From: Streptacidiphilus jiangxiensis
GTDB lineage: Bacteria; Actinomycetota; Actinomycetes; Streptomycetales; Streptomycetaceae
Direction: 5' to 3'
Assembly (NCBI RefSeq): GCF_900109465.1
Contig: NZ_FOAZ01000010.1
Location: 248,001 to 312,000 of the forward strand
Length of the DNA: 64,000 nucleotides
Positions 5,580-59,594 of the stretch are shown piece after piece; the stretch's first letter is position 1; every line of letters begins with the position of its first letter. Position numbers and translations under genes: made by a program. Below the pieces are notes generated by a model that saw nothing but the letters and a program-made list of their open reading frames with translations, ran no database searches and was not told the origin of the DNA.

Positions 5580-5680
5580 AGGGGCGCGAGGAACTGCGCG
5601 AGCAACCGCCCTGTGCGGATGGCCCTGTCACTGGGGGACCATCCGCTCAGGTGGCTTGTCGCGCAGTTCCCCACGCCCCT
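5580..5680. repeat. Long palindromic intergenic element, copy A
   Basis: Left arm begins AGGGGCGCGAGGAACTGCGC; right arm ends GCGCAGTTCCCCACGCCCCT. An inner pair, GCGGATGGCCCT and GGGACCATCCGC, continues the complementarity almost to the centre. The element begins one base after the stop of the secreted propeller gene and ends 31 bp before the stop of hppD, so it sits between convergent genes. Confidence 0.85.
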
Positions 5681-5711
5681 GAACAGTGCGACTACCTGCG
5701 GGAGCGAATCC

Positions 5712-6884
<1,173 letters not shown>

Positions 6885-13497: not shown

Positions 13498-13683
13498 GGT
13501 CTCCGGCGGGGTCGACGTCAGGGGCGGTGAGCCGCAGGGCTCGATCGGACAACCCGGCAAGCTTACCGGCGCGCACACCGGTTCCCCGGGACGCTTGACA
13601 GCAAGTTGCACCCTCCAGGGCGCGACGCTCCACCACGTGGGCTCGACCGGCTCGGATCGCTCCCGCAGGTACCTGCCACCTCC
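13498..13683. other. Helicase upstream region
   Basis: Noncoding as far as I can see. TAAGCT on the minus strand near 13560 resembles a -10 box, but no good -35 box accompanies it. No other structure was noted before the palindromic element at 13684. Confidence 0.3.
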
Positions 13684-13787
13684 AGGGGCGCGGGGAACTG
13701 CGCGACAAGTCACCCACGCAGGTGGAAGGCCGAACGAGCGGGGCCGTCCGCCCGCCGGTGGTTGCTCGCGCAGTTCCCCGCGCCCCT
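13684..13787. repeat. Long palindromic intergenic element, copy B
   Basis: Arms AGGGGCGCGGGGAACTGCGC and GCGCAGTTCCCCGCGCCCCT enclose a more divergent centre than in the other copies. The right end lies 12 bp from the stop of the MFS gene, so on the minus strand it directly follows that gene and precedes the helicase gene. Confidence 0.85.
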
Positions 13788-13799
13788 GAGGTGTCGCCG

Positions 13800-15182
13800 C
13801 TAAGGACGTGCCCGAAGACACACCGCGACGCCGGCGAGCATCACGACGACCATCGCCCCGAAGACCGCCACGAAGCCCGTCGTCGACCCCGTGCCGAGTG
13901 AGGTGAACAACAACCCGCCCAGCGCCGTACAGACAATGTTCCCGAGCGCGTCACTCACCTGGAGCGACGCGGAGTTCGCTCCCGCCTCCTCCGGCTCGGA
14001 GAGGTTGAACAGCAGGACGCTGACGCTGGCGATCGCCAGCCCCATGCCGCAGCCGCCCAGGGTCCACGCGGCGAAGACGAGGAACGCCGGCGCCGCCGGC
14101 AGGGAGGCCAGGGCCACCAGGGCGATCGCGACGGCGCCCGCGGCCAGCCCGGCCTGGACGAGGCGGAGACGGTGCCTCTCGGCGAACGGGCGGCCCTGGA
14201 GCCAGGAGCCCACCGCCCAGAAGATGCCGCCGCCGGCGAGGGAGAGGCCCGCCAGTGTCGGGGAGTAACCGTGCTGGGTGACCAGCATCAGCGGGATGAA
14301 GGCCTCGGCGGAGATGAACGCGCCCGCGGCGATGCCGCGCAGCAGGATCACCGTCGGCAGGCCGCGCTCCGCGCGGAACGTGCCGCGCGGGAGGAGACGG
14401 GTGGCGGCCGGCCCCAGCAGTGCGGCACCCACCACGGCCGGCAGCAGCGACCACAGGTCCAGCCGCTGCGTGGCGTACTGCAGCAGCCCCGCTCCCGCCG
14501 CCAGCGCCAGCGCCAACCGCAGGCGCCGCCGGTCCAGCGGCTGCCCGGCCGCGTCGCCCGCGCCGATGCCGCGCAACTGCGGCAGCATCAGCACCAGCGG
14601 CGCGATGATCAGGACGGGGATGGAGAGGAAGACCCAGCGCCACCCGAGGTGCTGGGTGACGGTCCCCGACACCAGCGGCCCGATCACCGAGGGCAGCACC
14701 CAGGAGGCGGCGAAGGCCGCGAAGACCTTGGGTCGCAGCCGCTCCGGGTAGCGCAGGCCGACGACGACGTAGAGCGCCACGATGACCAGCCCGCCGCCCA
14801 GCCCCTGGGTGACCCGCCCGGCGACGAAGGTCCACATCGTGGTGGCGGTTCCGGCCAGTACCAGCCCCACCCCGAAGACGCCGATGCCCGCGCCCAGCGG
14901 CACCAGGGGCCCGCGTTTGTCGCACCACTCCCCCGAGACCACCATGGCCAGCAGGCTGGCGGTGAAGTACCCGGTGAACGCGAAGGCGTAGAGCCCGAGG
15001 CCGTTCAGCGAGCGTGCGGCGACCGGCATCGCGGTGTTGACCGCGGTCGCCTCGAAGGCGATCAGCAGCACGCAGGCCACGATGCCGATCGTGAGCATGC
15101 GATAGGGCCGGTTCAGGATGCCGGCCGTCCGGTCGGCGTCGTCGATTCCGGTCGGGTGGGCGAGGGTCGTCACCGGCCCCAT
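13800..15182 (-). CDS. MFS transporter, drug-exporter type
   Basis: A 460-residue integral membrane protein with about 12-14 hydrophobic segments. The major-facilitator signature appears as SGEWCDKRGPLVPLGAG between helices 2 and 3, and a FEATAVNTAMPV motif in helix 1 is typical of DHA-type proton-driven exporters. Later features such as FVAGRVTQGLGGG (motif B/C region) also fit. The substrate cannot be inferred. The start is either ATG at 15182 or the in-frame GTG three codons on; neither has a strong ribosome site. The palindromic element copy B follows its stop. Confidence 0.9.
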   Translation of the reverse strand: MGPVTTLAHPTGIDDADRTAGILNRPYRMLTIGIVACVLLIAFEATAVNTAMPVAARSLNGLGLYAFAFTGYFTASLLAMVVSGEWCDKRGPLVPLGAGIGVFGVGLVLAGTATTMWTFVAGRVTQGLGGGLVIVALYVVVGLRYPERLRPKVFAAFAASWVLPSVIGPLVSGTVTQHLGWRWVFLSIPVLIIAPLVLMLPQLRGIGAGDAAGQPLDRRRLRLALALAAGAGLLQYATQRLDLWSLLPAVVGAALLGPAATRLLPRGTFRAERGLPTVILLRGIAAGAFISAEAFIPLMLVTQHGYSPTLAGLSLAGGGIFWAVGSWLQGRPFAERHRLRLVQAGLAAGAVAIALVALASLPAAPAFLVFAAWTLGGCGMGLAIASVSVLLFNLSEPEEAGANSASLQVSDALGNIVCTALGGLLFTSLGTGSTTGFVAVFGAMVVVMLAGVAVCLRARP

Positions 15183-15338: not shown

Positions 15339-15413
15339 GCCCGTGTGCCCGAGTGGTTGAGGGAGCCGCCTGCAAAGCGGTTTACGCCGGTTCGATTCCG
15401 GTCATGGGCTCCA
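15339..15413 (+). tRNA. tRNA-Cys (GCA anticodon)
   Basis: The cloverleaf folds by eye: acceptor GCCCGTG with CATGGGC, anticodon stem GCCGC/GCGGT around loop CTGCAAA (anticodon GCA), and T arm GCCGG-TTCGATT-CCGGT. The discriminator base is T (U73), an identity element of tRNA-Cys, and CCA is encoded. The D arm pairs CCC with GGG. Its 3' half is overlapped on the other strand by the last codons of the NuoF-like gene. Confidence 0.95.
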
Positions 15414-16381: not shown

Positions 16382-16483
16382 TTGGGGACTCCCGTCGTCG
16401 TTGGTGTTCTTCCGACTACGGGTTCCACGTTGCGCCCCCGGCATGAGAGCACCATGAGCGAACCGTCGCTTTTGCACTAAAGA

Positions 16484-16504
16484 GGCAGTTCCTCGCGCCC
16501 CTGA
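16484..16504. repeat. Half copy of the palindromic element (right arm only)
   Basis: GGCAGTTCCTCGCGCCCCTGA matches the right arm of the element seen at 26100-26119. No left arm is found upstream. Like the full copies it sits directly after a stop codon, here 2 bp beyond that of the molybdoenzyme gene. Confidence 0.7.
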
Positions 16505-16506
16505 GG

Positions 16507-18984
16507 TCACACCGAAGCGTCCTCGGGTTGGATCGGGAGGCGGGTGATGGGCATGCCCGTGGCCGCGCGGACCGCTGCGGCGATCGCGGCCGGGGCGACG
16601 ACCGCAGGCGCCGCGCCGACGGCCTTCGCGCCGAAGGGGGCGACGACGTCGCGGTCCTCGATCATCGCCGCGACGCGGATGTCGGGGGCGTCCAACGCAG
16701 TTGGCAAGCGGTAGCCGACCAGCGACGGGGCGAGGACACGCCCTTCGCCGACCGCCAGGTCCTCCATCAGGGCCAGGCCCAGCCCCTGCGTCACACCCGC
16801 CTCGATCCGCGCCTCGATCTGGCGCGGGTTGAGCGCGCGGCCCACGTCCTGCGCCGCGGTGACCTCGACGACGCGCACGGTGCCGAGGTCGATGTCCACG
16901 TCCACCACGGCCCGCATCGCGCAGAAGCCGAGGCCGACGAAGGCGTCGCCCTGGCCGGTCTCCGGGTCCAGCGGCTCGGTCGGGTGCGGACGGCACTGGG
17001 CGGTGGCCCACAGGTCCTTGCCCTCCAGCGCCTCGACCACGGGCACGCCGAGCACCCCGTCGTAGGAGGTGATCCGGCCGTCCTTGATGCTGAGCAGCTC
17101 CGGCGACATGGCGAAGCGCGCCGCCAGCGGCTGCAGCAGTTGCTGGCGCACCATCAGCGCCGCGCGCTCGATCGCCCCGCCCGCGACCCACGTCTGCCGG
17201 CCCCGCGCGGACGGCCCGGCCGCCGGCTGGTCGGTGTCGACGGGGGCGATGTAGACGTCCTCCACGCCCAGGATCTCCTGGACGATCTGCTTGGCCAGCG
17301 TGGCGAAGCCGGAGCCGGGGTCGACGGCGGCACAGATCACCGACGCCTGCGAGCCGGTGACCCGGACCGACGCGGTGGCGACCTCGTCCTCGCCCTCGAT
17401 GCCGAGCATCGGGACCATGCCGATCGCGTAGCCGATGCCACGCCGCACCGCGGCGGGGTCGCCCGCGCCGGCGGGGCCCTCCGGCAGCAGCCACTCCGCA
17501 TCCGGACGGTCGACCGGCAGCGGCGGCAGCGGCTCGTCGGCGACGGCGTCCAGCAGCTCGCGCACCGGAGCGGGGCAGGTGACGGCCTGTCCGGTGGGCA
17601 GCAGGTCGCCGGTGGCCATGATGTTGCGGCGGCGGATCTCCAGCGGGCTGAGGTCCAGCGCGGCGGCGAGCCGGTCCAACTGGGACTCGTACGCGAAGCA
17701 GGACTGCAGCGCGCCCTCGCCGCGCATCCGTCCGGACGGCGGGTTGTTGGTGCGCACCGCCCAGGCGTCGACGAACACGTGCGGGACCACGTAGGGCCCG
17801 GCCGCCAGCGCCGCGGCGGACGCCAGCACCTCGCTGGAGACGTCGGCGTAGGCGCCGCCGTCCAGCAGGATCTGCGCCTCGACCTTGACCAGACGGCCCT
17901 CGGCGTCGGCGTGGTGCCGGTAGCGCAGCAGCGCGGGGTGGCGGTGCGGGTGGGAGAGGAAGGACTCCTCGCGGGTCAGCACCATCTTGACCGGGTGGCC
18001 GGTGCGGGCGGCGAGCAGCGCAAGAGTGGCCTGGAAACCGAGGTCGTCACGGTCGGCGGTGGCACCGGGGATGCCGCTGACGACGAGCCGGACCCGGTCC
18101 GGCTCGATGCCCAGGCACAGGGCGATCCGGTCCCGGTCGCCGTGCGGGTCGGTCGTGGCGACGTGCAGCTCGACGCCGCCGTCCGGACGCGGCACGGCCA
18201 GTCCGGCCTCGGCGCCGATCGGCGCCGGGTCCTGACGGCCCACCTGGTACATGCCCTCGACGACCACCTCGCCGACGACCTCCGGGTCGCCGAAGCGCAG
18301 CGGCAGCTGGCGGAAGAGGTTGCCGTCCGGGTGCAGCGGCGGTGCGTGGAAGGCCTGGTCGGGGTCGGTGAGCGCGGCCAGCGGCTCCCACTCGACCAGG
18401 ATCGAGGCGGCGGCCAGCCGGGCGGTGTCGGGGTGGTCGGCGGCGACCGCGGCGAAGGGCTCGCCGTGGTGGCGCACCACCTCAGCGGCCAGGATCGGCC
18501 GGTCGGCGACGTAGGGGCCGGTCGGGGCGCCGTTCGGCAGGCCGTCCGGGCCGGGCGGCAGGTCGTCGGCGGTCAGCACCGCGTAGACGCCCGGCATCGC
18601 GAGGGCGGGCCGGGTGTCGATGGAGACCATCCGCGCGTGCGCGAACGGCGAGCGGGCAAGCGCGCCCCAGAGCAGGCCCTCGGCCCACAGGTCGGCGGCG
18701 TAGGGGTAGACACCCATCGCCTTCGCGACCCCGTCCTCGCGCAGCGCGGACACGCCGATGCCGACGCGCTGCGCCCGGATCGCGTCGTCGATGTCCGTCA
18801 CGGGCGTGGCGGCGGACGAGGGCGGGCTCGCACTGGCCGTCAGCAGCCCGCCCAGGGCGGCACCGGTGGCGCTGCCGGGGGCGCCCTCGCGCACGGTGGC
18901 GAGGTTGGTCAGCGTGGTCTCGCCATTGCCGCCCGCGGCGCCGGTGGCCCCGGCCGCGTCGGACGGGCTGGAGGGGGTGCTCAC
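16507..18984 (-). CDS. Xanthine dehydrogenase family, molybdopterin-binding subunit
   Basis: The 825-residue catalytic subunit of a molybdenum hydroxylase (xanthine dehydrogenase/aldehyde oxidase family). The N-terminal hammerhead domain (about residues 85-200, with DLWAEGLLWGALARSPFAHA) is followed by the two molybdopterin-binding domains. Visible signatures include PSGRMRGEGA, corresponding to the substrate-side segment, and GAKAVGAAPAVVAPAAIAAAV near the C terminus, corresponding to the catalytic-Glu region (GxKGVGE in active enzymes). Here that Glu position reads A/G, so the active site differs from the classical one. Start GTG overlaps the stop of the 2Fe-2S gene as GTGA. Substrate (purine or other heterocycle) is unknown. 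Confidence 0.9.
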   Translation of the reverse strand: MSTPSSPSDAAGATGAAGGNGETTLTNLATVREGAPGSATGAALGGLLTASASPPSSAATPVTDIDDAIRAQRVGIGVSALREDGVAKAMGVYPYAADLWAEGLLWGALARSPFAHARMVSIDTRPALAMPGVYAVLTADDLPPGPDGLPNGAPTGPYVADRPILAAEVVRHHGEPFAAVAADHPDTARLAAASILVEWEPLAALTDPDQAFHAPPLHPDGNLFRQLPLRFGDPEVVGEVVVEGMYQVGRQDPAPIGAEAGLAVPRPDGGVELHVATTDPHGDRDRIALCLGIEPDRVRLVVSGIPGATADRDDLGFQATLALLAARTGHPVKMVLTREESFLSHPHRHPALLRYRHHADAEGRLVKVEAQILLDGGAYADVSSEVLASAAALAAGPYVVPHVFVDAWAVRTNNPPSGRMRGEGALQSCFAYESQLDRLAAALDLSPLEIRRRNIMATGDLLPTGQAVTCPAPVRELLDAVADEPLPPLPVDRPDAEWLLPEGPAGAGDPAAVRRGIGYAIGMVPMLGIEGEDEVATASVRVTGSQASVICAAVDPGSGFATLAKQIVQEILGVEDVYIAPVDTDQPAAGPSARGRQTWVAGGAIERAALMVRQQLLQPLAARFAMSPELLSIKDGRITSYDGVLGVPVVEALEGKDLWATAQCRPHPTEPLDPETGQGDAFVGLGFCAMRAVVDVDIDLGTVRVVEVTAAQDVGRALNPRQIEARIEAGVTQGLGLALMEDLAVGEGRVLAPSLVGYRLPTALDAPDIRVAAMIEDRDVVAPFGAKAVGAAPAVVAPAAIAAAVRAATGMPITRLPIQPEDASV

Positions 18985-20795
18985 GAACCGGACTCCTGGC
19001 CGTGCTGGTGGGGCAGGACGTAAACACCGGTCGCCGGGTCGAGCCCACCGGGCACCCCGGACGCGCGGCCGTACTCGTAGGGCTGGTCCGCGACCTGACC
19101 GGCGTCGAAGCCGTCGGCCTCGGGCCCGGACACCACCGGCATCGAGATCGTGCCGACGTGGAACGAGCCGGTGACGTCGGACGGCAGGCCCGCCGCGCTG
19201 GTCGCCGCGCCCGCGAAGGACCCTCCGGAGGTCGCGGCGGAGGGCACCGGGGCCGGCGAGGGCGTCGGGTCGGCCTGGTCGACGGCGCCCCGTCGCCGCG
19301 CGGCCGCCTGGGCCCTCATGCCCGCACCGAGACCGGCACCGAGGCCCGAGCCGAGGCGCAGCTCCCCGGTCTGCCCGGACACCCTCCCGGCCGACGCGGC
19401 CCCAGCGGCGCCGGCGGGCTCGGCCACCGCCTGCTCGGGCACGGTCGCCCCGGAGTACGCGCCGGCGGGATAGTCCTGCTGGCCATGGTCCGTACCGGAA
19501 TGGTCCGCGACGGCGTAGCCGGTCGCGAACTCCCCCGCGGGGAACTGACCGGTGGCGAACTCACCCGTCGGGAACTCACCGGTGGCGAACTCACCCGTCG
19601 CGAACTGGCCGGTCGCGAACTGGCCCGTGGCGAACTGGCCGGTGGCGAACTGGCCGGTCGCGAACTCACCCGTCGCGTGGTCCGGCGTCAGGTGGAACTC
19701 CCCCGTCGCCGGGCCGGCGGCGGCCCCGCCGACGACCGGCATCTCCTGCGTGCCGCCCGGCGCCGTCATCAGCAGCGTTCCGCCGGCCTCACCCGCGGCC
19801 GAGCGGACGTCGGAGCCGTCGGCCTGGCTCGGGAACCGGCCGCCGAACGGGCCACCCGGGTAGGGGCCCTGGCCGCCGCCGTACGGCTGCTCGTGAGGCT
19901 GGTCGTGGGGCTGGTCGTAGGTGCCGGTGGCGTAGCCCTGCTGCGGATAGGCCTCCGGCTGCGGGTAGCCGTCCTGCTGCGGGTAGCCGGGAGCCGGGTA
20001 GCCGCCGTCGTATCCGCCGTGCTGCGGCGGGACGTCGACGTAGACCGGCAGTTCCGCCTCCACGTCGTACCCGTCGTCCTCACCCTGCGGCGACTGCTCG
20101 TACGACTCGTACGACTCGTAGGGCTCGTACGGGTCCAGCTCCGCCTCGTCGTGACCGGCGGCGGCGGGGAGCGGGATCAGCTCCTCGACCGGGGAGGTGG
20201 CCTCGATCAGGGCGTCGGCGGGGCCGTCGCCGAAGAACGGAGTGGCGGTCGACTCCTCCTCCGGCGCGTCCTCGTCGTCCGCGCGGGAGGCGGCGACCGC
20301 CTGGACCGCGGCGAGCGCGCCCCGGTAGCCGGTGCAGCGGCAGAGGTTGCCGCAGAGCGCCTGACGGGCCTCCAGCTCGCTGGGGTGGTGGTTGCGTTCC
20401 AGCAGGTCGTGCACGGCCATGGCCAGGCCCGGCGCGCAGTAACCGCACTGCACGGCACCGCTGTCGGCCAGCGCCTGCTGCACGTCGGAGGGCACGCCCT
20501 CCTCGGCCAGGCCCTCGACCGTGCGGATCTCGACACCGGCGGCGAGCGCGGCGGGCACCAGGCAGGCGGCGGTCAGCTGGCCGTCGACCTGCACCGAGCA
20601 GGCCCCGCACTCGCCCTGCTCGCAGCCGCCCTTGGCACCGGCCAGCCCCAGCCGCTCGCGCAGCACGTACAGCAGGCTCTCGCCGATCCACGCGTCCGCG
20701 ACCGGGCGCTCCACGCCGTTGACGTGCAGCGTGTAGGAGCTGCGCGGCGAGTCGTCCGCGCCGAACCCCAGCGGGGAAGTCAGAAAGTCCGTCAC
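18981..20795 (-). CDS. 2Fe-2S subunit of the molybdenum hydroxylase with ~430-residue low-complexity tail
   Basis: Residues 20-165 are a complete small subunit carrying two [2Fe-2S] clusters: plant-type ligands Cys58, Cys63, Cys66 and Cys78, and the C-terminal cluster ligands Cys117, Cys120, Cys152 and Cys154. Family members usually end at about 160-170 residues. Here 604 residues are encoded. The tail is acidic and Tyr/Pro/Gln/Gly-rich (YESYESYE, then repeated GYPQ segments), contains ten [AP]-[TA]-G-[EQ]-F pentapeptides at about residues 374-427, and finishes in an Ala/Gly-rich stretch. GTG at 20795 has GGGAGGG upstream and overlaps the FAD-subunit stop as GTGA; the 3' end overlaps the molybdenum subunit in the same way. 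Electron transfer between the molybdenum and FAD subunits is the family role; the tail's role is unknown. Confidence 0.92.
   Translation of the reverse strand: MTDFLTSPLGFGADDSPRSSYTLHVNGVERPVADAWIGESLLYVLRERLGLAGAKGGCEQGECGACSVQVDGQLTAACLVPAALAAGVEIRTVEGLAEEGVPSDVQQALADSGAVQCGYCAPGLAMAVHDLLERNHHPSELEARQALCGNLCRCTGYRGALAAVQAVAASRADDEDAPEEESTATPFFGDGPADALIEATSPVEELIPLPAAAGHDEAELDPYEPYESYESYEQSPQGEDDGYDVEAELPVYVDVPPQHGGYDGGYPAPGYPQQDGYPQPEAYPQQGYATGTYDQPHDQPHEQPYGGGQGPYPGGPFGGRFPSQADGSDVRSAAGEAGGTLLMTAPGGTQEMPVVGGAAAGPATGEFHLTPDHATGEFATGQFATGQFATGQFATGQFATGEFATGEFPTGEFATGQFPAGEFATGYAVADHSGTDHGQQDYPAGAYSGATVPEQAVAEPAGAAGAASAGRVSGQTGELRLGSGLGAGLGAGMRAQAAARRRGAVDQADPTPSPAPVPSAATSGGSFAGAATSAAGLPSDVTGSFHVGTISMPVVSGPEADGFDAGQVADQPYEYGRASGVPGGLDPATGVYVLPHQHGQESGS
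19515..19676. repeat. 15-bp tandem repeat (minisatellite) coding for ATG[EQ]F units
   Basis: About eleven in-frame 15-bp units of the form GGTGGCGAACTGGCC (plus-strand reading) encode the pentapeptide array in the 2Fe-2S subunit. Neighbouring units differ mainly at Glu/Gln and at synonymous sites. Length being a multiple of three, copy-number change would keep the frame. Confidence 0.9.
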
Positions 20796-24687: not shown

Positions 24688-26007
24688 ATGACCGACGATG
24701 TCCTGATCGTCCACGGCGGAACGCCGCTGGAGGGTGAGATCCGTGTCCGCGGCGCGAAGAACCTCGTGCCCAAGGCCATGGTGGCGGCCCTGCTGGGTCA
24801 CGAGCCGAGCCGGCTGCGCAACGTTCCGGACATCCGTGACGTCAAGGTCGTGCGCGGCCTGCTGCAGCTGCACGGGGTGACCGTGCGCGCCGGCGAGGAA
24901 GAGGGCGAGCTGGTGCTCGACCCGACCTATGTCGAGAGCGCGAACGTCGCCGACATCGACGCGCACGCCGGCAGCTCGCGGATCCCGATCCTTTTCTGCG
25001 GCCCGCTGCTGCACCGCCTCGGCCACGCGTTCATCCCGGGCCTCGGCGGCTGCGACATCGGCGGCCGCCCGGTCGACTTCCACTTCGACGTGCTGCGGCA
25101 GTTCGGCGCGGTCATCGAGAAGCACCCGCAGGGCACCGTGCTCAACGCCCCGCAGCGGCTGCGCGGCTGCAAGATCGAGCTGCCCTACCCGTCGGTGGGG
25201 GCGACGGAGCAGGTGCTGCTGACCGCGGTGCTGGCCGAGGGCGTCACCGAGCTGCGCAACGCGGCCATCGAGCCGGAGATCGTCGACCTGATCTGCGTGC
25301 TGCAGAAGATGGGCGCGATCATCTCGATGGGCACCGACCGCACCATCCTCATCACCGGCGTGGACCGTCTGGGCGGCTACAACCACCGCGCCATCCCGGA
25401 CCGCCTGGAGGCGGCCTCCTGGGCGTGCGCGGCGCTGGCGACGCAGGGCGACATCTACGTCCACGGCGCCCGCCAGCTGGAGATGATGACCTTCCTGAAC
25501 ACCTTCCGGAAGGTCGGCGGCGCGTTCTCGGTCGACGACGACGGCATCCGCTTCTGGCACCCGGGCGGCGAGCTGAAGGCCATCGCCCTGGAGACGGACG
25601 TGCACCCGGGCTTCCAGACGGACTGGCAGCAGCCGCTGGTCGTGGCCCTGACGCAGGCCTCCGGCCTGTCGATCGTCCACGAGACCGTCTACGAGTCCCG
25701 TCTCGGCTTCACCTCCGCGCTGAACCAGATGGGCGCGCACATCCAGCTCTACCGCGAGTGCCTCGGCGGCACGCCGTGCCGCTTCGGTCAGCGCAACTTC
25801 CTGCACTCGGCGGTCGTCTCCGGCCCGTCCAAGCTGCAGGGCGCCGAGCTGGTCATCCCCGACCTGCGCGGCGGCTTCTCCTACCTGATCGCGGCGCTGG
25901 CCGCGCAGGGCACCTCGCGCGTCCACGGCATCGACCTGATCAACCGCGGCTACGAGAACTTCATGGACAAGCTGCGCGCGCTGGGCGCGCAGATCGAAGC
26001 GCCGTAA
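24688..26007 (+). CDS. murA: UDP-N-acetylglucosamine 1-carboxyvinyltransferase
   Basis: Transfers enolpyruvate from PEP to UDP-GlcNAc, the first committed step of peptidoglycan synthesis, in the cytoplasm. The 439-residue protein has the two inside-out alpha/beta domains of the EPSP-synthase fold. Key residues are visible: Lys in GAKNLVPKAMVAALL near the N terminus and the active-site Cys122 in LGGCDIGGRPVDFH (the fosfomycin-reactive position). Because the cysteine is kept, fosfomycin sensitivity at the target level is expected. The ATG at 24688 follows a weak GCGAGA site. The palindromic element copy C starts 10 bp after its stop. hupA and malic enzyme lie beyond, as in other streptomycetes. 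Confidence 0.96.
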   Translation: MTDDVLIVHGGTPLEGEIRVRGAKNLVPKAMVAALLGHEPSRLRNVPDIRDVKVVRGLLQLHGVTVRAGEEEGELVLDPTYVESANVADIDAHAGSSRIPILFCGPLLHRLGHAFIPGLGGCDIGGRPVDFHFDVLRQFGAVIEKHPQGTVLNAPQRLRGCKIELPYPSVGATEQVLLTAVLAEGVTELRNAAIEPEIVDLICVLQKMGAIISMGTDRTILITGVDRLGGYNHRAIPDRLEAASWACAALATQGDIYVHGARQLEMMTFLNTFRKVGGAFSVDDDGIRFWHPGGELKAIALETDVHPGFQTDWQQPLVVALTQASGLSIVHETVYESRLGFTSALNQMGAHIQLYRECLGGTPCRFGQRNFLHSAVVSGPSKLQGAELVIPDLRGGFSYLIAALAAQGTSRVHGIDLINRGYENFMDKLRALGAQIEAP

Positions 26008-26016
26008 AGGCGCTTG

Positions 26017-26119
26017 GGGGGCGCGAGGAACTGCGCGAGAAACCACCCGATGCGGATGGCCCTGCTCGTTGAGGACCATCTGCACGCCGGTGGCTTGTCG
26101 CGCAGTTCCTCGCGCCCCT
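26017..26119. repeat. Long palindromic intergenic element, copy C
   Basis: Arms GGGGCGCGAGGAACTGCGCG and CGCGCAGTTCCTCGCGCCCC are perfect complements, and GCGGATGGCCCT pairs imperfectly with AGGACCATCTGC toward the centre. It lies between the convergent stops of murA and the GNAT gene, about 10 bp from each. Confidence 0.87.
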
Positions 26120-26130
26120 GAGTAGTGCAA

Positions 26131-26889
26131 CTACCGCCTGGTGAAGACGTGCACCGTGCCCGCCGGCTCGAAGCCCCCGCGGGCATACCACTCCTTCGGC
26201 CAGTCGTCCGCGTCGGCCAGGAGGAAGAGGAGCTGCGCGTCCGCCGCCCGGTGCAGGGCCGTGGCCAGCACCGTCGCGGCGTGGCCGCGGCCGCGGTGGG
26301 GTTCGGCGGTCACCAGGTCCTCGACCTGTGCGACGCCGGCCGCCCGGTCCTGGTAGAGGTCGGCCCAGGCCGCGACGGAGCCGTCCGCGTCCCGCACGGC
26401 CAGGAACCGGACCTCGTCGGCGCCCCGCAGACGGGTCGCGCGCCGCTCGACGAGGTGACGGACCGTCTCCTCGTCGGACTCCGGCCAGAACGCCCGCTCC
26501 TGGAGCGTCAACGCCGGTCGCAGCGTGTCCAGGTCCACCTCCTCGGCGGCCGGTGTCGCAGCGGGGCGGGCTCCCCGATGGATCATCACCAGGGCTGCTC
26601 CCTGCTGGTATCCGACGGCCTTCAGGAACGGCGCGCAGGCGTCTCCCAGGGGTCCTGGCAGGACGGTGACCATCCGGTGCCCCAGACCGTCCAGCAGCGC
26701 GTCCACGCGGCCGGCGAGCAGCTCCGGGTCGGTGTCACCGTCCACGACGACCTGGTTGTGCTCCCAGGATCGCGCGTATGCGGGGTCGCGCACCGCGAAG
26801 CCGCCGGGGAAGTCCGTCGTCAGCGCCGCCTGGCGGCGGGCGAAGGAGGCGAGGAAGGAGGCGACCCGGTCCAGTTCGCTTGAGATCAT
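26131..26889 (-). CDS. GNAT family N-acetyltransferase
   Basis: A 252-residue acetyltransferase with the C-terminal GNAT fold at about residues 120-245. Motif A, the acetyl-CoA pyrophosphate loop, is visible as VTAEPHRGRGHAATVLATAL, and motif B ends in DADDWPKEWYARGGFEPAG. The N-terminal half may be a degenerate second GNAT-like domain. Substrate is unknown. The ATG at 26889 was chosen over an upstream start because the extra residues look noncoding. It is convergent with murA. Confidence 0.85.
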   Translation of the reverse strand: MISSELDRVASFLASFARRQAALTTDFPGGFAVRDPAYARSWEHNQVVVDGDTDPELLAGRVDALLDGLGHRMVTVLPGPLGDACAPFLKAVGYQQGAALVMIHRGARPAATPAAEEVDLDTLRPALTLQERAFWPESDEETVRHLVERRATRLRGADEVRFLAVRDADGSVAAWADLYQDRAAGVAQVEDLVTAEPHRGRGHAATVLATALHRAADAQLLFLLADADDWPKEWYARGGFEPAGTVHVFTRR

Positions 26890-32987: not shown

Positions 32988-33002
32988 GCGTTGCACTATC
33001 CC

Positions 33003-33107
33003 AGGGGCGCGAGGAACTGCGCGAGCAACCCACCCCAGGCGGATGGCGCTGCCCGCTCGGGATCTCAAGGCCCACGGTGGGCTTGTCGCGCAGTTCCTCG
33101 CGCCCCT
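33003..33107. repeat. Long palindromic intergenic element, copy D
   Basis: Arms AGGGGCGCGAGGAACTGCGC and GCGCAGTTCCTCGCGCCCCT are perfect complements; the centre is the least symmetric of the five copies. It starts 4 bp beyond the PadR stop on the minus strand and ends 15 bp before the AlkZ-like start. Confidence 0.86.
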
Positions 33108-33111
33108 GGGG

Positions 33112-33717
33112 TTACTCGCCGTCGTTCGCCAGCGCGAGCAGCTCCTCCGGGGACCAGGCCAGCCGTCCCGCGTCGAGATCGGCCAGCACCCCGTGGAGCC
33201 ACCCCAGCTCCGCCGCCGTCATCGTCCGCACGTACTCGCCCTCCAGCGAGGCGATCCTCGGCAGCCCGCCCTCGGACTCGCGCGCCAGGTCCGCGGCCTG
33301 CGCGGCGAGCGTCCGCTCCAGGGTGGCCGCGCGGCGGGACAGCGCGTCGCGCATCGCCGCAGGAGTCAGCAGCATCAGCAGCGAGAGCGCAGCAGGAAAC
33401 TCCGGGAACTCCTGCTTGGGCGTGGACAGCATCTCGTCCAGCCACCGGTGCGCGACCTCGCTGCCCGCGTCGGTCACCTCGTAGACCGTGCGCTCGGGGT
33501 ACTGCGCGTCCCGGCCCGTCTCCCGGACGGCGATCAGGCCCGCCTCCAGCAGCCGGTCCATGGTCCGGTACAGGCCGGCCCGCTGCCCGACGTTGACGAC
33601 CTGGTCCTTGCCCCACTCCTTGAGCAGGCGCTGCACGCCGTAGGGGTGCAGCGGCCTGTAGTGCAGCAGGGCCAGCACGGTCAGGGCCAGCGGGGAACTC
33701 CGGGGCGCAGCGCTCAT
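33112..33717 (-). CDS. PadR family transcriptional regulator
   Basis: A 201-residue PadR regulator with the N-terminal winged helix at residues 8-85 (LALTVLALLHYRPLHPYGVQRLL, then RAGLYRTMDRLLEAGLI and the wing YPERTVYEVTDAG) and a C-terminal helical dimerisation domain. It is divergent from an FAD monooxygenase gene, with a 17-bp palindrome and direct repeats in the 64-bp intergenic region. The sensible reading is repression of that gene and of itself, relieved by a substrate of the monooxygenase. Its ATG is preceded by TAGCAT rather than a ribosome site, suggesting leaderless expression. Confidence 0.9.
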   Translation of the reverse strand: MSAAPRSSPLALTVLALLHYRPLHPYGVQRLLKEWGKDQVVNVGQRAGLYRTMDRLLEAGLIAVRETGRDAQYPERTVYEVTDAGSEVAHRWLDEMLSTPKQEFPEFPAALSLLMLLTPAAMRDALSRRAATLERTLAAQAADLARESEGGLPRIASLEGEYVRTMTAAELGWLHGVLADLDAGRLAWSPEELLALANDGE

Positions 33718-35635: not shown

Positions 35636-35655
35636 TCTTCGTTACATGGGGTCGG

Positions 35656-36021
35656 TGGAGGTGGCGGGAATCGAACCCGCGTCCTGTGGTGCGGAACCAG
35701 AGCTTCTCCGAGCGCAGTCTGCTGTGATTTTCTCGGCCCCGGGAGTCACGCAGACAAGCTCCCGACGGGCCCAGCCACTGTTAGGTTTTCCGCACTACCC
35801 CGTGACCGGGTCGAGCGGTGGAGTCTCCTAGATTAAGCCAGGCTCCGGGACGGAGACGCGCCCGGTCTGACTCCTTCGGATACTCGCTCAGGCGGCGAGG
35901 GCGAAGGTGGATCGCGTGTTATTGGCGATTATTTTTTGCGGCCCGTGGTTAACGAGATCATTGCCGCTTCCTCGGCTCGCTTCCTCTGCCTCGACATCCC
36001 CAGTCGAAACCGATCACCCCC
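35656..36021 (-). ncRNA. ssrA: Transfer-messenger RNA (tmRNA)
   Basis: A 366-nt tmRNA that rescues stalled ribosomes together with SmpB. The 5' end GGGGGTGATCGGTTTCGAC and the 3' end with T-arm GCGGG-TTCGATT-CCCGC and acceptor CACCTCC-A form the tRNA-like domain; the acceptor stem is seven pairs with one G-U. CC but not the final A of CCA is encoded, so the end must be repaired. The tag reading frame (35888-35926) reads ANNTRSTFALAA. Pseudoknot segments occupy the rest. smpB lies 113 bp upstream on the same strand. Confidence 0.95.
35888..35926 (-). CDS. tmRNA proteolysis tag reading frame
   Basis: Starting at resume codon GCC, preceded by AATAATC (compare the GTAGTC before the resume codon in E. 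coli), the frame encodes ANNTRSTFALAA followed by TGA. The terminal ALAA is the conserved ClpXP/ClpAP degradation signal. The tag is 12 residues, shorter than the 16-residue tag I remember for Streptomyces. Confidence 0.85.
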   Translation of the reverse strand, partial: ANNTRSTFALAA

Positions 36022-41913: not shown

Positions 41914-44136
41914 CTATCGGCCGTGGGTGTACTGGAGGCCACCGGCCGGGGTGACCCGGAACAGCGTGATGCCGCCGCCGTCCGCGTACGCGCCCTGCGC
42001 GTACGTCGAGGCCGGGGCGGCCGGAAGCGCTGCGGGGGTCCACGTCGCGCCGGAGGCGGTGCTCGCCGCGTATCCGCCGTCCGTCGAGAAGACGTAGACC
42101 TCGCCCGAGACCGCCTGTACGGCCTCCGGCCGGGTCTGGCCGCTCACGCCGGTCACGGTGCGCGGCGGGACGTGCCACAGGCCGCCCGCGAACTGGATGT
42201 GCTGGACCGTTCCTGCCGCGACCGCGACGAAGGCGTCGATCCTGCCGCCGCTCTCCGCCGCCAGCGCGGGATCGCCCGAGACCTGGCCCACCAGCGGCAC
42301 CGCCGCCCACGCCGTCCACGCGCCGTTGACGAAGGAGGTTGTTCCCAGCGCCCCGCCGATCCGGGCGACGAGGTCGACCCGGTCACCGGTGGCGACCGCC
42401 GCCGGCGGGGAGTCGACCCGGGTGTGGCCGTCCAGCTGGCTCCACGGGGACCACGAGCCGCCGGTGAGGTCGCGCTGGTAGATCAGGCCGTCGGTGCCGG
42501 TGGCGAAGAGCCTCAGCACGCCGCCCGGCAGGGCGACGGGCGCCGGCTCGCCGCTGACGTGTATGCCGGTGAGCTTGCCCCAGGACCCGAACGAGCCGCC
42601 GCTGCGGGTCACGTACCGCACCGCACCGCTCGCGTCGGTGCCGAAGACGTACGCGGTGCCGCCGACCCGGATCGCGCGCGCGCCGCTGACCAGCTGCGCC
42701 GGGACGGCGGGCACGTCGGCCCAGGCGGTCCAGGCGGGCAGATGGGGGGCGCCCGCGGCGGGCAGCGAGTCGCTGGCACCCGCGACGGGCGCCGTCGGCA
42801 GTCCGGCCGCGTGCGTGCGGTGGGCGTGGGGCGTCGCCGCGTCGCCGGGGTTGCCGTGGCGGGGGGCCGGGCCGCCGGAGAAGGCGGCGTACCCGCCCAC
42901 GCCGACCAGCGTCAGGACGACGGCCGCGGCGCCGGCCAGGACAAGGCGTCGGCGGCGGGCCACCGCACCGCCCACGCCGCTGCGCCGGGCGCCGCCGAAC
43001 CCGCCGAACCCGCCGACCGGGCCGGAGCCGGCCGGCCCGCCGGAGCGACGTGCGGCGGCCCGCTGGGCCCGGGAGGCCTCAGCGAGTCCGCTGAGCTCCT
43101 CGGGGCGGGGGCGGCGCAGGTTGGTGTGGGTCTCCCGGCTGGAGTCCGGCGCGCTGCCGGGGACCAGCGGGACGGCCGAGCCGCGCCGTCGGCGGGGCGT
43201 CTGCGTCCGGGCGTCGTCGTCCGCGGCCTCGTCGTCGGCGTCGTAGCCGTCGTAGCCGGGCAGCGGGGTGACCGCCGGGGCGTCGGGGTGGGCGATGCGC
43301 AGCGCCGGCAGCCCCGCCAGGGCCGGCAGCAGCTCGCGCAGGCCGGTGGCCAGCTCGGCGGCACGCAGCCGGGAGGCGGGGGCCTTGGCCAGGCACTGGG
43401 CGAGCACCTTCCACAGCGGCTCGGGCAGGCCGGGCAGCGGCGGGACGGATTCGGTGACGTGGCGGCGCAGCACCGCGCCGGTGTGGCCGCCGCCGAAGGG
43501 GGTGAACCCGGCCAGCAGCTCGTAGAGCACCGTGGCGAGGGCGTAGATGTCGACGGCGGCGCGCGGCTCCAGGCCTTCGATGATCTCCGGCGCGAGGTAG
43601 TCGGGCGTGCCGATGATGCGGGTGGCGCGGGTGCGGCGGGGGGCGTCGACCAGGCGGGCGATGCCGAAGTCGGAGAGCTTGGCGCGCGGCGCCCCGCCGG
43701 GGCCGGGGCCGGACGCCTGGTCGAGCAGGATGTTCTCGGGCTTCACGTCGCGGTGGATGACGCCCTGGGCGTGCGCGGCGGCGAGCCCCTCGGCGACGTC
43801 CGCGACGACGGAGACCGCCGCCTGCGGCGTGAACGGGCCCTCGCGGTCCAGCCGGGACCTCAGGTCGGAGCCGTGGACGAGCTCCATCACCAGGGCGAGG
43901 TCGTCACCGTCGACGACGAGGTCGCGGACACCGACCACGCGGGGGTGGTCGAGGCTGGTGAGGACCGTGCGCTCCTGGACGAACCGGCCGACCAGGACCT
44001 GGTCGGAGGCGAGGTCCTCGCGCAGGATCTTGATCGCGACCGGGCCCTCCGGGCCCTCCCCGAGCCACACGGTCCCGGCCGAACCGCGGCCGATCACCGA
44101 GTGCGCGGTGTAGCGGCTACCGATCTTGCGTGCCAA
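41914..44136 (-). CDS. pkaB: Receptor-type Ser/Thr protein kinase with extracellular propeller-like domain (PkaB position)
   Basis: A 740-residue kinase. The cytoplasmic Hanks-type kinase domain covers residues 8-270: Gly loop GRGSAGTV, ATP lysine Lys36, catalytic Asp130 (HRDVKPEN), DFG at 156-158 and APE in YLAPEII. A charged linker (270-395) leads to one transmembrane helix at about 397-417. The extracytoplasmic part (about 440-740) consists of five or six repeats with a W-x-x-W-type core (PAWTAWADV, GSFGSWGKL, GSWSPWSQL, GAWTAWAAV), resembling lectin-like beta-propellers of the PLL type. That domain may sense a wall or sugar ligand. The symbol is by position next to prfB, from memory of S. 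coelicolor; the extracellular domain may be lineage-specific. Confidence 0.9.
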   Translation of the reverse strand: MARKIGSRYTAHSVIGRGSAGTVWLGEGPEGPVAIKILREDLASDQVLVGRFVQERTVLTSLDHPRVVGVRDLVVDGDDLALVMELVHGSDLRSRLDREGPFTPQAAVSVVADVAEGLAAAHAQGVIHRDVKPENILLDQASGPGPGGAPRAKLSDFGIARLVDAPRRTRATRIIGTPDYLAPEIIEGLEPRAAVDIYALATVLYELLAGFTPFGGGHTGAVLRRHVTESVPPLPGLPEPLWKVLAQCLAKAPASRLRAAELATGLRELLPALAGLPALRIAHPDAPAVTPLPGYDGYDADDEAADDDARTQTPRRRRGSAVPLVPGSAPDSSRETHTNLRRPRPEELSGLAEASRAQRAAARRSGGPAGSGPVGGFGGFGGARRSGVGGAVARRRRLVLAGAAAVVLTLVGVGGYAAFSGGPAPRHGNPGDAATPHAHRTHAAGLPTAPVAGASDSLPAAGAPHLPAWTAWADVPAVPAQLVSGARAIRVGGTAYVFGTDASGAVRYVTRSGGSFGSWGKLTGIHVSGEPAPVALPGGVLRLFATGTDGLIYQRDLTGGSWSPWSQLDGHTRVDSPPAAVATGDRVDLVARIGGALGTTSFVNGAWTAWAAVPLVGQVSGDPALAAESGGRIDAFVAVAAGTVQHIQFAGGLWHVPPRTVTGVSGQTRPEAVQAVSGEVYVFSTDGGYAASTASGATWTPAALPAAPASTYAQGAYADGGGITLFRVTPAGGLQYTHGR

Positions 44137-44296: not shown

Positions 44297-46306
44297 TCAG
44301 TTTCCACCCGACGGCACGTTCGGGATCGACTTTCGGACCTTGTTCACCTGGTTCGCCGCGCCGGTGAGGTCGTGCCACCACGTCACGAGCTGGGCCCACC
44401 AGCCGTGGACGATGTTCAGCCCGTGGTCGATCCAGCCGTGCAGCGGCGAGAACCGCCAGACCAGGAAACCCACCACGACCAGGAAGATCAGCACCTTCAG
44501 GCAGCCCATGCCCGGGATCCGCGGCATCCGACGGCGCGGCGGGCGGGGCGCCCGCTCGCGGGCTCGCTCCGGCGCGCGGTCGTAGTCGGGCTCGCGCTCC
44601 CGCTCCGGTGCGCGGCGCGCGGGCTCGGGACGGCGCGCAGGCTCCGGCCGGCGCTCCTCGTACCCGCGCTCCTCGTACCCGCGCTCCCGCTGCGGCCGCT
44701 CCTGGTAGGGCCGCGGCGCGACGGGCGGCGGCGCCTGACGCCGCGTCTGCGGCGCCTGCCGTGCCTGGCCCGCCTGCTGCCCCTGCTGGGACGGCTGGCC
44801 CTGGTAACCCTGCTGACGCTGCGGCTGCGGCCGGTACGGCGGCGGGGCGACCTGCGGCCCGGCCGCGAACGGGTCGTCGACCGCGAACTCGCCCAGCGCG
44901 GCGATCTGCGTCTGCTCGTTGCGCTCCCGCGCCTGGCGCAGCTGCGACTCCCACGGGTGCGGGCTGTCCTGCCCGGCCCCGCCCTGCGGCGCGGCGCTTG
45001 TCGGCATCATCCGCGTCCGCTCCGGCCCGCCCGCACCGGTACCGCTCTGCGGCAGCACCGCCGTCGGGTCGGCGGCGCCGTACGGTTGCCCGCCGATGCC
45101 GCCCTGCCCGGCGCCCTGCGGGAGCACCGCCGTCGCATCAGCCGCACCGGGCACGTAGCCGTTCTGCGGCAGCACCGTGGTCGCGTCACCCGCGCCCGCG
45201 ACAAAGCCCTGCGAGGCCAGCACCTGCGTCGGATCCGCCGCGCCGACGGGACCGGCGGTCGCCCCGCGGCCGCCCAGCAGCATCGTGCGGGCGTCCTCCG
45301 GCTGCCCCGGCAGCACCGGGGAGCCGTCGATGCCGGTGGTCTCGACGCCGCGCGGCAGCGTCGCGTCCTCGGAGCCGGGCAGGTTCGGCAGGTAGGCGGG
45401 CGGGGAGAGGAGCACGCCGACCGCGTTCGCGGCCTCGATCTGGGCCGGGGTCGCGTGCACGCCGACGCCCGCGGCGACCGTGCGCAGCGCCGTGGCCAGC
45501 GCGACCGCGGTCGGGCGGCGGGCCGGGTCCTTCTCCAGGCAGCGCTCCAGCACCGTCCACAGCGGATCGGGCACCGCGGCCGGACGCTCCGGCCGCTGCG
45601 ACAGGTGCGCCTGCAGGATCTGGATCGGCCCGTCCCCGTGGAACGGCGGTCGCCCGGTGAGCAGCTCGTAGAGCATGATCCCGGCGCCGTAGACGTCGAC
45701 GGCCGCCGTCTGCTCACGGCCCTCGGCGGACTCGGGCGCGACGTAGGCGGGCGTGCCGACGAACTCGGCGGTGCGGGTCAGGCCCGGGGAATCGGCCAGA
45801 CGGGCGATGCCGAAGTCCGTCAGCAGCGGGTGCATGACCGGACCGGCCGGGCCCTGGACCGTCGCCAGCAGCACGTTCGCGGGCTTCAGGTCCCGGTGGA
45901 CGACGCCGTCGCCGTGGCTGGCGGCGAGCGCGTCGGCGATCTGCGCCGTCAGCAGGGCGCCGGCCACCGGCGAGAGCGGACCGTGCTCGCGCAGGTAGCG
46001 GTACAGGTCGGGACCGTCGACGAGGTCCATGACCAGGGCGAGCAGCTCGCCCTCGACGACGAGGTCCCGCACCCGGACGATGTTCGGGTGCACCAGGCGC
46101 AGCAGCACCGCGCGCTCGCGCAGGAAGCGCATCACCACGTCGGGGTCGGTGGCCAGCTCCTCCTTGAGGACCTTGATCGCCACCACCGCGCCGGGCGCGA
46201 CCGGGGCGTTCTCGGCGTCGTCCCGCACCCGGGCACGCCAGACCGTCCCGGTGGCGCCGCGTCCGAGCGGCTCCTCCAGCAGGTACTTACTGCCAACCGG
46301 CCGCAC
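44297..46306 (-). CDS. pkaA: Ser/Thr protein kinase with long Thr-motif linker (PkaA-like)
   Basis: A 669-residue kinase. The N-terminal kinase domain (residues 6-275) has GRGATGTV, Lys45 (VAIKVLKEE), catalytic Asp139 (HRDLKPAN), DFG in LTDFGIARL and a PE motif in YVAPESAEG. The region 310-600 is a disordered linker: first a series of T-x-V-L units (DPTQVLASQ, DATTVLPQ, DATAVLPQ, DPTAVLPQ near residues 355-418), then Gln/Pro-rich, then Arg/Glu/Pro-rich. One transmembrane helix lies at about 603-619 with a 50-residue extracytoplasmic end. GTG at 46306 has GAGGAG 5 nt upstream. It is in tandem with the other kinase (160 bp) and divergent from the FHA protein gene. The pkaA symbol is by synteny memory. 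Confidence 0.9.
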   Translation of the reverse strand: MRPVGSKYLLEEPLGRGATGTVWRARVRDDAENAPVAPGAVVAIKVLKEELATDPDVVMRFLRERAVLLRLVHPNIVRVRDLVVEGELLALVMDLVDGPDLYRYLREHGPLSPVAGALLTAQIADALAASHGDGVVHRDLKPANVLLATVQGPAGPVMHPLLTDFGIARLADSPGLTRTAEFVGTPAYVAPESAEGREQTAAVDVYGAGIMLYELLTGRPPFHGDGPIQILQAHLSQRPERPAAVPDPLWTVLERCLEKDPARRPTAVALATALRTVAAGVGVHATPAQIEAANAVGVLLSPPAYLPNLPGSEDATLPRGVETTGIDGSPVLPGQPEDARTMLLGGRGATAGPVGAADPTQVLASQGFVAGAGDATTVLPQNGYVPGAADATAVLPQGAGQGGIGGQPYGAADPTAVLPQSGTGAGGPERTRMMPTSAAPQGGAGQDSPHPWESQLRQARERNEQTQIAALGEFAVDDPFAAGPQVAPPPYRPQPQRQQGYQGQPSQQGQQAGQARQAPQTRRQAPPPVAPRPYQERPQRERGYEERGYEERRPEPARRPEPARRAPEREREPDYDRAPERARERAPRPPRRRMPRIPGMGCLKVLIFLVVVGFLVWRFSPLHGWIDHGLNIVHGWWAQLVTWWHDLTGAANQVNKVRKSIPNVPSGGN

Positions 46307-57583: not shown

Positions 57584-58498
57584 TCAGCCCTTCACCGAGC
57601 CCGCCAGCAGCCCGCGGACGAAGTAACGCTGCAACGAGAAGAAGACGATCAGCGGGACGACGACGGAGACGAACGCACCCGCCGTCAGGATCTCCCAGTG
57701 GTCGCCGAAGGAGCCGGACAGCTGCGCCAACCGGGAGGGCATCGGCGCGGACTCCGGTGCGCCGCCGGTGAAGGTGAGCCCGACCAGCAGGTCGTTCCAG
57801 ACCCACAGGAACTGGAAGATGGCGAACGAGGCCAGCGCCGGAGTCGCCAGCGGCAGCACGATCGAGCGGAACACCCGGAAGTGGCTGGCGCCGTCGACGC
57901 GCGCGGCCTCGATCAGGTCGCGGGGCAGCTGGGCGATGAAGTTGTGCAGCAGGAAGACCGCGAGCGGCAGCGCGAACATGGTGTGCGCGATCCACACCGG
58001 CGCGTAGGTGCCGCCCATGCCGAGCGCCGGAAAGATCGTCACGCCGCCGATGTGCGCGCCGCCGGAGAACAGCTGGAGCAGCGGCACCAGCGCCATCTGC
58101 AGCGGCACCACCTGCAGCGCGAAGATCACGAAGAAGATCGCGTCGCTCCCCCGGAACGGGATCCAGGCCAGCACGTAGGCGGCCATCGACGCGATCACGA
58201 TCGGGAAGATCGTGGCCGGAACGGTGATCGCGATCGAGTTCACCAGGTAGGGCATCAGCCCGTCCTGGACCCCGAACCCGCCGTTGAACAGCACGTCGTG
58301 GTAGTTCGCCAGGGTCAGGTGCGGGTGTGCGAAGAAGTCCCACCACCCGGTGTTCGCCACGTCCTGCTGCGGCCGCAGCGAGGTGACCAGCAGCCCGAGC
58401 GTCGGCACCGTCCACACGACGGTGACCAGCAGCACCGCGAAGGACGCGAGGGGGCTGCTGATCGCCCGCCGCACACCGGTACGAGTCGGCGTCGCCAT
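57584..58498 (-). CDS. Carbohydrate ABC transporter permease, MalG type
   Basis: A 304-residue sugar-importer permease with six helices. The EAA coupling loop is IEAARVDGASHFRVFRSIVLPLATPAL. Its ATG overlaps the stop of the MalF-type gene by one base (TGATG). The order binding protein, MalF type, MalG type on the minus strand forms an operon of the CUT1 class. No ATPase is included, which is usual in Streptomyces where the shared ATPase MsiK serves such importers. No enzyme gene adjoins it to name the sugar. Confidence 0.94.
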   Translation of the reverse strand: MATPTRTGVRRAISSPLASFAVLLVTVVWTVPTLGLLVTSLRPQQDVANTGWWDFFAHPHLTLANYHDVLFNGGFGVQDGLMPYLVNSIAITVPATIFPIVIASMAAYVLAWIPFRGSDAIFFVIFALQVVPLQMALVPLLQLFSGGAHIGGVTIFPALGMGGTYAPVWIAHTMFALPLAVFLLHNFIAQLPRDLIEAARVDGASHFRVFRSIVLPLATPALASFAIFQFLWVWNDLLVGLTFTGGAPESAPMPSRLAQLSGSFGDHWEILTAGAFVSVVVPLIVFFSLQRYFVRGLLAGSVKG

Positions 58499-59490: not shown

Positions 59491-59594
59491 AGGGGCGCGG
59501 GGAACTGCGCGCTGAGCCACCGACATGCGGATGGTCCTCAACGTTCAGGGCCGTCCGCAGGCCGGTGGTTGCTCGCGCAGTTCCCCGCGCCCCT
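59491..59594. repeat. Long palindromic intergenic element, copy E
   Basis: The best preserved copy: two 52-base halves with about 43 complementary positions and no loop. Arms are AGGGGCGCGGGGAACTGCGC and GCGCAGTTCCCCGCGCCCCT; the inner part GCGGATGGTCCT faces AGGGCCGTCCGC. It begins 8 bp after the sugar-binding protein stop and lies inside what looks like a transporter operon. Confidence 0.88.

Follow-up and report, generated by a model that had tools for sequence, protein, structure and literature searches.

A REP-like palindromic repeat at gene ends, present in about 200 places in Streptacidiphilus jiangxiensis and practically confined to the Streptomycetaceae

Introduction

ERIC, Correia/NEMIS and MIRU elements are transcribed intergenic repeats of about 50–160 bp, with imperfect palindromes or terminal inverted repeats, that lie near or overlap start or stop codons. 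The repeat analysed here resembles REP/BIME sequences and REPINs, which are described as a short core in hundreds of extragenic copies, occurring as singlets, in arrays and as inverted pairs that form one hairpin over a variable spacer, with a GTAG-type tag and with proposed roles in termination and mRNA stability (PMC3116915, PMC3733652). The termini of GTAG REPs are also described as supplying the TAG stop codon to neighbouring genes (PMC3733652), as is the case here.

Many natural products in clinical use come from the Streptomycetaceae, a family in which transcription termination is poorly understood because U-tracts are rare. The hairpins of the present repeat are like the stable, GC-rich, U-poor hairpins described at Streptomyces transcript 3′ ends, where some terminators are bidirectional (PMC8269248, PMC12207403). 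According to PMC12207403, the Streptomyces hairpins are the longest, most stable and least U-enriched among the species compared there, and few mapped 3′ ends satisfy the criteria for intrinsic terminators. In S. coelicolor, abundant short RNAs at palindromes, many of them in 3′ UTRs, were taken as decay intermediates (PMC4681348). Our search of the literature, which covered few subscription journals, found no description of the repeat reported below.

Results

Five palindromes at gene ends within the window

In the window, which is the whole stretch of 64,000 nucleotides analysed, the initial annotation had listed five palindromes of about 104 bp next to stop codons. All five were present, with lengths of 101–105 bp, together with tips and arms outside them.

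5580..5680, forward strand: copy A, 101 bp, in a convergent gap
5686..5705, reverse strand: outer tip of copy A, reverse strand GCTCCCGCAGGTAGTCGCAC
13604..13626, forward strand: partial, degenerate arm and its tip (AGTTGCACCCTCCAGGGCGCGAC), in the same gap as copy B
13684..13787, reverse strand: copy B, 104 bp, in a tandem gap
16482..16501, reverse strand: degenerate unpaired arm with 3 mismatches
26017..26119, forward strand: copy C, 103 bp, in a convergent gap
26125..26135, reverse strand: outer tip of copy C
32988..33002, forward strand: outer tip of copy D (GCGTTGCACTATCCC)
33003..33107, forward strand: copy D, 105 bp, in a tandem gap
59491..59594, reverse strand: copy E, 104 bp

Copy A lies between an ORF ending at 5579, for which a family search gave no match, and the 4-hydroxyphenylpyruvate dioxygenase gene (5712–6824, reverse strand). 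Copy C is flanked by murA (24688–26007, forward) and a GNAT-like gene (26131–26889, reverse), the stop codon of which is the TAG of the outer tip of the copy. The remaining copies follow reverse-strand genes: copy B an MFS-transporter-like gene (13800–15182), copy D a PadR-like gene (33112–33717) and copy E a solute-binding-protein gene (59603–60970; PF01547), with copy E standing 18 bp ahead of the called start of a transport-permease gene (58498–59472, reverse; PF00528). Distances to the nearest stop codon, measured on our own gene calls, were 0 bp for A, 12 bp for B, 9 and 11 bp for C, 4 bp for D and 8 bp for E, compared with the 1–12 bp given before.

The 20-bp outer arms within one copy are identical in B, C, D and E and differ at 2 bases in A, so their near-identity was confirmed. 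Ungapped self-complementary positions amounted to 30 of 50 in A, 34 of 52 in B, 32 of 51 in C, 34 of 52 in D and 43 of 52 in E, the last figure being the one annotated for the two 52-base halves of copy E. Near-full-length folding, also claimed earlier, was obtained on both strands of all five copies, with energies from −77.8 to −91.8 kcal/mol and z scores from −7.6 to −13.1; in each of these ten folds, none of 200 shuffled sequences folded as well.

The window was also searched against Rfam, which gave no match at the repeat copies above the gathering threshold; the only matches were a tmRNA (35653–36021, reverse) and one tRNA gene (15339–15410, forward). Two further repeated features were noted in the window. 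The first is a tandem repeat with a period of 15 bp (19488–19692), which probably encodes a five-residue protein repeat, since it lies within a called gene (18981–20795, reverse). The second consists of two adjacent reverse-strand genes (43336–44041 and 45482–46184) that share several blocks of 71–79% identity at a spacing of 2,143–2,146 bp and look like the products of a tandem duplication.

An inverted pair of a 20-bp core with outward tips

Pairs and their contexts were analysed in 1,496,629 bases of the S. jiangxiensis genome, part of them in tiles chosen for holding matches. This sequence held 79 arm pairs and 8 unpaired arms. The usual build is two inverted cores whose starts are 81–82 bp apart and which form a hairpin of about 104 nt; 55 of the 79 pairs measured 103–104 bp, and copies occurred in both orientations. 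The unit is composed of the 20-bp core GGGGCGCGRGGAACTGCGCG and, outside it, a degenerate tip of the GTAGTTGCAC type. Because an outward tip of the form (G)TAGTTGCAC-N4..6-CA was found on many flanks, the unit is longer than 104 bp, which corrects the annotated size.

GTTGCA-like tips were present on 73 of 158 flanks. The pattern GTTGCAC-N3..8-GGGGCGCG was counted 132 + 132 times in the relative G004, 67 + 103 times in G012 and once in G003, and was absent from G009 and G013. A second type of arm, with a longer stretch containing TGCGGCTCCGCCGC in place of GAACTGCGCG, forms part of the copies of 128–132 bp (locus B of G010, in L150; L081:9172–9301; other longer copies); at locus B of G010 both arms carry the change at once. 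GTAG occurred within 30 nt of the arm on 33 of 158 flanks, compared with 10 of 158 further out as a control, and was not at the foot of the palindrome. Two features of REPINs, namely many extragenic copies of a short core and inverted cores with a less conserved spacer forming one hairpin, were both present.

Copy number and distribution

The 9.54-Mb genome of S. jiangxiensis (93 contigs) contained 231 + 220 matches to the arm at up to 2 mismatches, compared with 2 + 1 for a reversed-pattern control, which corresponds to about 200 places. In a survey of 199 genomes at up to 1 mismatch, the arm was detected in 86. It was present in 82 of the 121 Streptomycetaceae genomes, 18 of these having 1–3 matches only, and the highest count (303 + 325, 628 in total) was found in a genome of this family. 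Outside the family, 4 of 78 genomes gave one single one-mismatch match each. The genome-wide search proposed in the initial annotation thus revealed a repeat that is practically confined to the Streptomycetaceae and patchy within them.

Patchiness extends to close relatives. S. jiangxiensis, G001, G004, G005, G011 and G012 have 150–226 arms per strand, and G002, G006, G008 and G010 have 57–77 per strand. The same-genus genomes G003, G007 (76% complete), G009 and G013 have 0–1 arms per strand, 0–2 in all; these four form one group with a local support of 1.000, next to G001, G005 and G011, in an unrooted tree of eight shared proteins. A short inverted pair with a tip was observed in G003 (L282, around contig position 1765849), with a called stop 12 bp away. 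G003 is otherwise nearly free of the repeat, and the pair is possibly a remnant or a gained piece.

Arrangement also varies. In eight genomes of another genus the same core has different surroundings and forms inverted pairs, outward pairs and head-to-tail arrays, and in the stretches of G001, G005 and G011 that were compared the core was mostly unpaired (15 of 16 entries). As a separate observation, a further palindromic module, similar to TGGGGGTACCCCCAGGCGAAGCTCTGGGGG, was seen in L264, L274, L277 and L283 (G018, G072, G066 and G063); in another genus it sits inside or beside arms of the family, as if inserted there.

Preference for stop codons

Gene contexts were assigned with a simple codon-based gene caller. 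The 79 pairs comprised 26 convergent, 44 tandem, 4 divergent and 5 intragenic cases, the last being excluded from the stop-distance test. Of the 74 intergenic copies, 53 lay within 20 bp of a stop codon. Random placement within the same gaps gave 33.9 ± 2.8 (no more than 47 in any of 2,000 draws), and random intergenic DNA 7.2, so the claimed placement at gene ends held when stop codons were mapped. Copies in tandem gaps lay a median of 13.5 bp from the stop and 71 bp from the following start, and the stop was the closer of the two in 39 of the 44 copies. On two fully tiled contigs, 12 copies were found in convergent gaps, 15 in tandem gaps and 2 in divergent gaps, where 4.1, 15.7 and 9.2, respectively, were expected by length. 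TAG was the stop codon at 45 of the 96 gene ends facing a copy, compared with 242 of 1,228 called genes; among ends at a distance of 11, it lay within the element's own tip in 10 of 11, and likewise at some other ends. The preference for stop codons could be survivorship after random insertion.

These positions bear on the idea that a chromosome protein binds the arm as DNA and that the arm is retained in convergent gaps, where it would take up supercoils, the hairpin being secondary. For REP/BIME sequences, such partners are said to be gyrase and IHF. The conservation of the arm in sequence, its excess in convergent gaps and the unpaired arms of G001, G005 and G011, several of them identical at orthologous sites, would all agree with such a site; against it, four same-genus genomes do with 0–2 arms, 44 of the 74 intergenic copies lie in tandem gaps, and no protein is known to bind the arm. 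We consider this explanation improbable.

Orthologous places in relatives

The comparison of orthologous loci suggested by the initial annotation was carried out, and places lacking the repeat were found in relatives. At the end of murA, the place of copy C, a stop codon was found in 20 of 30 genomes, the other 10 loci having none in the scanned range. Among these 20 genomes, only S. jiangxiensis carries the arm there. A long near-perfect hairpin was present in 12 of the 19 others, with folds judged by eye, and none was seen by eye in 7 of 19, in three of which the stop taken was not the gene's own. G004, G006, G008 and G010 carry hairpins unrelated to the repeat in the same convergent gap. 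In G002 the gap to the neighbouring gene is only 9 bp, so that no hairpin is obligatory there.

Copy B has orthologs in G006 and G008, where each arm shows one mismatch, and no intact arm was found at this place in the other relatives compared. Copy E has an ortholog with both arms matching in G012; G005 and G011 carry at this place a shorter hairpin with similar outer sequence, differing between them at 2 positions. At the end of the dioxygenase gene, copies were found in S. jiangxiensis and G004, and none in G002, G006, G008, G010 and G012. When the ends of this gene were scanned in 80 named genomes, the arm (up to 3 mismatches, within 170 nt) was detected in 4, two of them exact, which was uninformative for insertion borders.

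The place orthologous to the degenerate arm at 16482..16501 holds an intact unpaired arm in G012. At four loci common to G005 and G011, unpaired arms have the same 20 bases and the adjoining bases differ; for one more arm of G011 the G005 counterpart is missing (best match with 7 mismatches). Orthologous arms that stay identical while their flanks drift suggest that the core is under purifying selection or is repeatedly converted from other copies.

The interiors behave differently. Copies stand in opposite orientation at locus B (S. jiangxiensis relative to G006 and G008), at locus E (relative to G012) and at one locus shared by G012 and G004. Inversion of the interiors in situ was considered as a cause and not retained, since other S. 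jiangxiensis copies match these interiors better than the orthologous one does: copy B comes 5th for G006 and 39th for G008, and copy E comes 57th for G012. Independent replacement is therefore as likely as inversion.

Such changes of content at loci B and E, which keep their position, and the presence of other hairpins at the murA end are what would be seen if ordinary terminators had converged on one sequence, or been homogenised to it by gene conversion, with no insertion involved. However, the same 20 bases at about 200 places, together with near-absence in related genomes, need copying into new places, and the GTTGCAC tips are copied too, making this account very improbable.

Conservation of the inner stem

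Selection for structure in the inner stems had been proposed. In an alignment of 60 of the 79 copies (101–106 bp, up to 4 arm mismatches in total) the arms hardly vary, and over the whole stem 13 pairs had both sides changed, compared with 12.5 after shuffling (247 of 500 shuffles reached the observed value). Three other measures were slightly above the shuffles: 84.3% of cells were paired compared with 83.6% (reached by 2 of 500 shuffles), 53 cells were double-changed compared with 39.9 (2 of 500), and the covariation score was 0.082 compared with 0.075 (9 of 500). Relatedness of the copies can also produce this small excess. The largest share of the double changes, 19 of the 53 cells, came from one arm pair, with the states A-T 24, G-C 19, A-C 8 and G-T 8 (Fisher p 0.0007).

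The left inner sequence GCGGATGGCCCTG was kept in 28 of the 60 copies with a poorly matching right half. Its conservation was about the same whether the right half pairs with it at 36% (13 copies), at 56% (15 copies) or at 89% (32 copies). The inner stem is conserved mainly as sequence, and the signs of pairing are weak, which leaves the proposed structural selection with slight support. The initial annotation had been staked on covariation and stop-codon enrichment not both being absent; enrichment is clear, and covariation comes close to being absent.

Search for a means of spread

About 200 places in one genome need copying, and candidate vehicles were examined. Mobilisation by a RAYT or IS200-type enzyme was not supported. 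PF01797, the family of RAYT-type Y1 transposases, was not found in S. jiangxiensis even at an E value of 0.1, nor in the high-copy genomes G001, G004, G015 and G018 at the default limit. None of 10 Y1 loci had an arm within about 1.5 kb on each side, and G020, G024, G033, G035, G038 and G052 have PF01797 and lack the arm. On the contrary side, PF01797 genes are present in the high-copy genomes G005, G011 and G012. No autonomous arm-flanked element was seen in 2.61 Mb of sequence either: three inward pairs 300–4,500 bp apart enclosed six genes, none of them recognised by eye as a transposase. Carriage by phages or plasmids found little support. Viral contigs had 0 exact arm matches, and a phage and plasmid search with copy C gave no match at 1e-5, a weak test in that interiors vary; at E 10, the plasmid search gave partial matches only, Streptomyces accounting for 24 of 89 records. 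As for a target duplication like the TA of Correia elements, TA stood beside 22 of 73 tips, where about 1% was expected, and on both sides in only 1 of 16 two-tip copies.

Could the copies nevertheless be selfish miniature transposons of the MITE or REPIN type, with a hairpin that serves transposition, gene ends as the least harmful places, and transcripts unaffected? Their dispersed high copy number and patchy distribution, fixed length and presence in both orientations would fit, as would the tandem arrays in another genus, the places without the repeat in relatives, the GTAG excess close to the arms and the PF01797 genes of some high-copy genomes. The five high-copy genomes without detected PF01797, the arm-free Y1 loci and the lack of an arm-flanked transposase in the sequence inspected argue against it, and so do orthologous arms that in some cases remain identical while flanks drift, and a stop codon clearly preferred over the rest of the same gap. 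On balance we regard a purely selfish nature as unlikely.

Expected effect on transcripts

Gaps without the repeat show what it may stand in for. A short-loop stem of at least 15 bp was present in 31% of 51 convergent gaps, 17% of 201 tandem gaps and 1% of 300 random DNA segments, a count that compares niches and not strengths because the loop of the repeat is too long to be included. In convergent gaps with the repeat, the rest of the gap after removal of the element has a median of 25.5 bp; with so little left, the repeat is likely to be the terminator there. Unrelated hairpins at the orthologous murA end likewise suggest that the repeat fits the role of a terminator with few U residues or of a 3′ stabiliser.

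Regarding the features of intrinsic terminators, a stable GC-rich hairpin just past the stop was found in the folds of the five copies. No U-tract followed the hairpin, with a mean of 1.9 T per 10 nt and at least 4 T in 7 of 96 cases. This speaks against an intrinsic terminator, although few U residues are usual in Streptomyces as described in PMC12207403.

Copy E constrains the expected effect. A full terminator between the solute-binding-protein and permease genes would silence the permease, so a leaky terminator, or a 3′ stabiliser favouring the binding protein, is more likely. The REP sequence between malE and malF of E. coli offers a parallel for this reading of copy E.

Discussion

From sequence and predicted folds, we consider it rather probable that the family consists of portable 3′-end hairpins that act in termination or stabilisation. 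Once transcribed, the hairpin would be a portable, bidirectional RNA 3′-end element: between convergent genes it would serve as a U-poor terminator, and between genes of the same direction, such as those around copy E, it would either terminate leakily or form a barrier against 3′ exonucleases, which would increase the amount of upstream message. Copies would spread without need of a resident RAYT and would persist chiefly at gene ends, being harmless or useful there. The initial annotation had offered terminators, 3′ stabilisers or mobile elements. The gene-end niche and the unrelated hairpins at the murA end favour the first two; copy number, patchiness and empty places favour a mobile or copied origin, for which we found neither an enzyme nor a target duplication or excision event.

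The near-identity of the arms exceeds the needs of a terminator and points to a sequence-specific process. A further-reaching idea, which we put forward tentatively and hold to be doubtful, is that a non-Y1 enzyme of the Streptomycetaceae might recognise the 20-bp core and place copies at stop codons. The copies could then act as interchangeable 3′-end modules that overwrite ancestral terminators and set gene ratios within operons, with the core kept by selection or gene conversion and read by RNA or DNA machinery. In any case, a repeat at gene ends provides one testable module in about 200 places of this genome.

The closeness to described repeats has its limits. Unlike RAYT-linked REPINs, the present repeat occurs without a detected RAYT in its own and four other high-copy genomes, and we therefore describe it as REP/REPIN-like. 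Moreover, its Streptacidiphilus core, judged by eye, is not itself a clear hairpin, its pairs are about 104 bp long (up to 132 bp), its GTAG tag is degenerate and lies about 10 nt outside the palindrome, and it occurs practically only in the Streptomycetaceae. CGTC-tagged REPs are alike in that they are said to be REP-like palindromes without a dedicated transposase, although their tag is another one and the word Streptomyces was not found in a text search of the source (PMC3733652). The likeness to ERIC, Correia/NEMIS and MIRU elements concerns described size and placement. The Streptomyces terminators, as presented in PMC8269248 and PMC12207403, are defined by 3′-end mapping and, unlike the present repeat, are not one repeat family. 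What has been found is a large, real, family-restricted repeat at gene ends that is REP/REPIN-like in build and probably in effect, and its REP-like spread to high copy number in genomes without a detected RAYT is relevant to the general question of how these repeats move.
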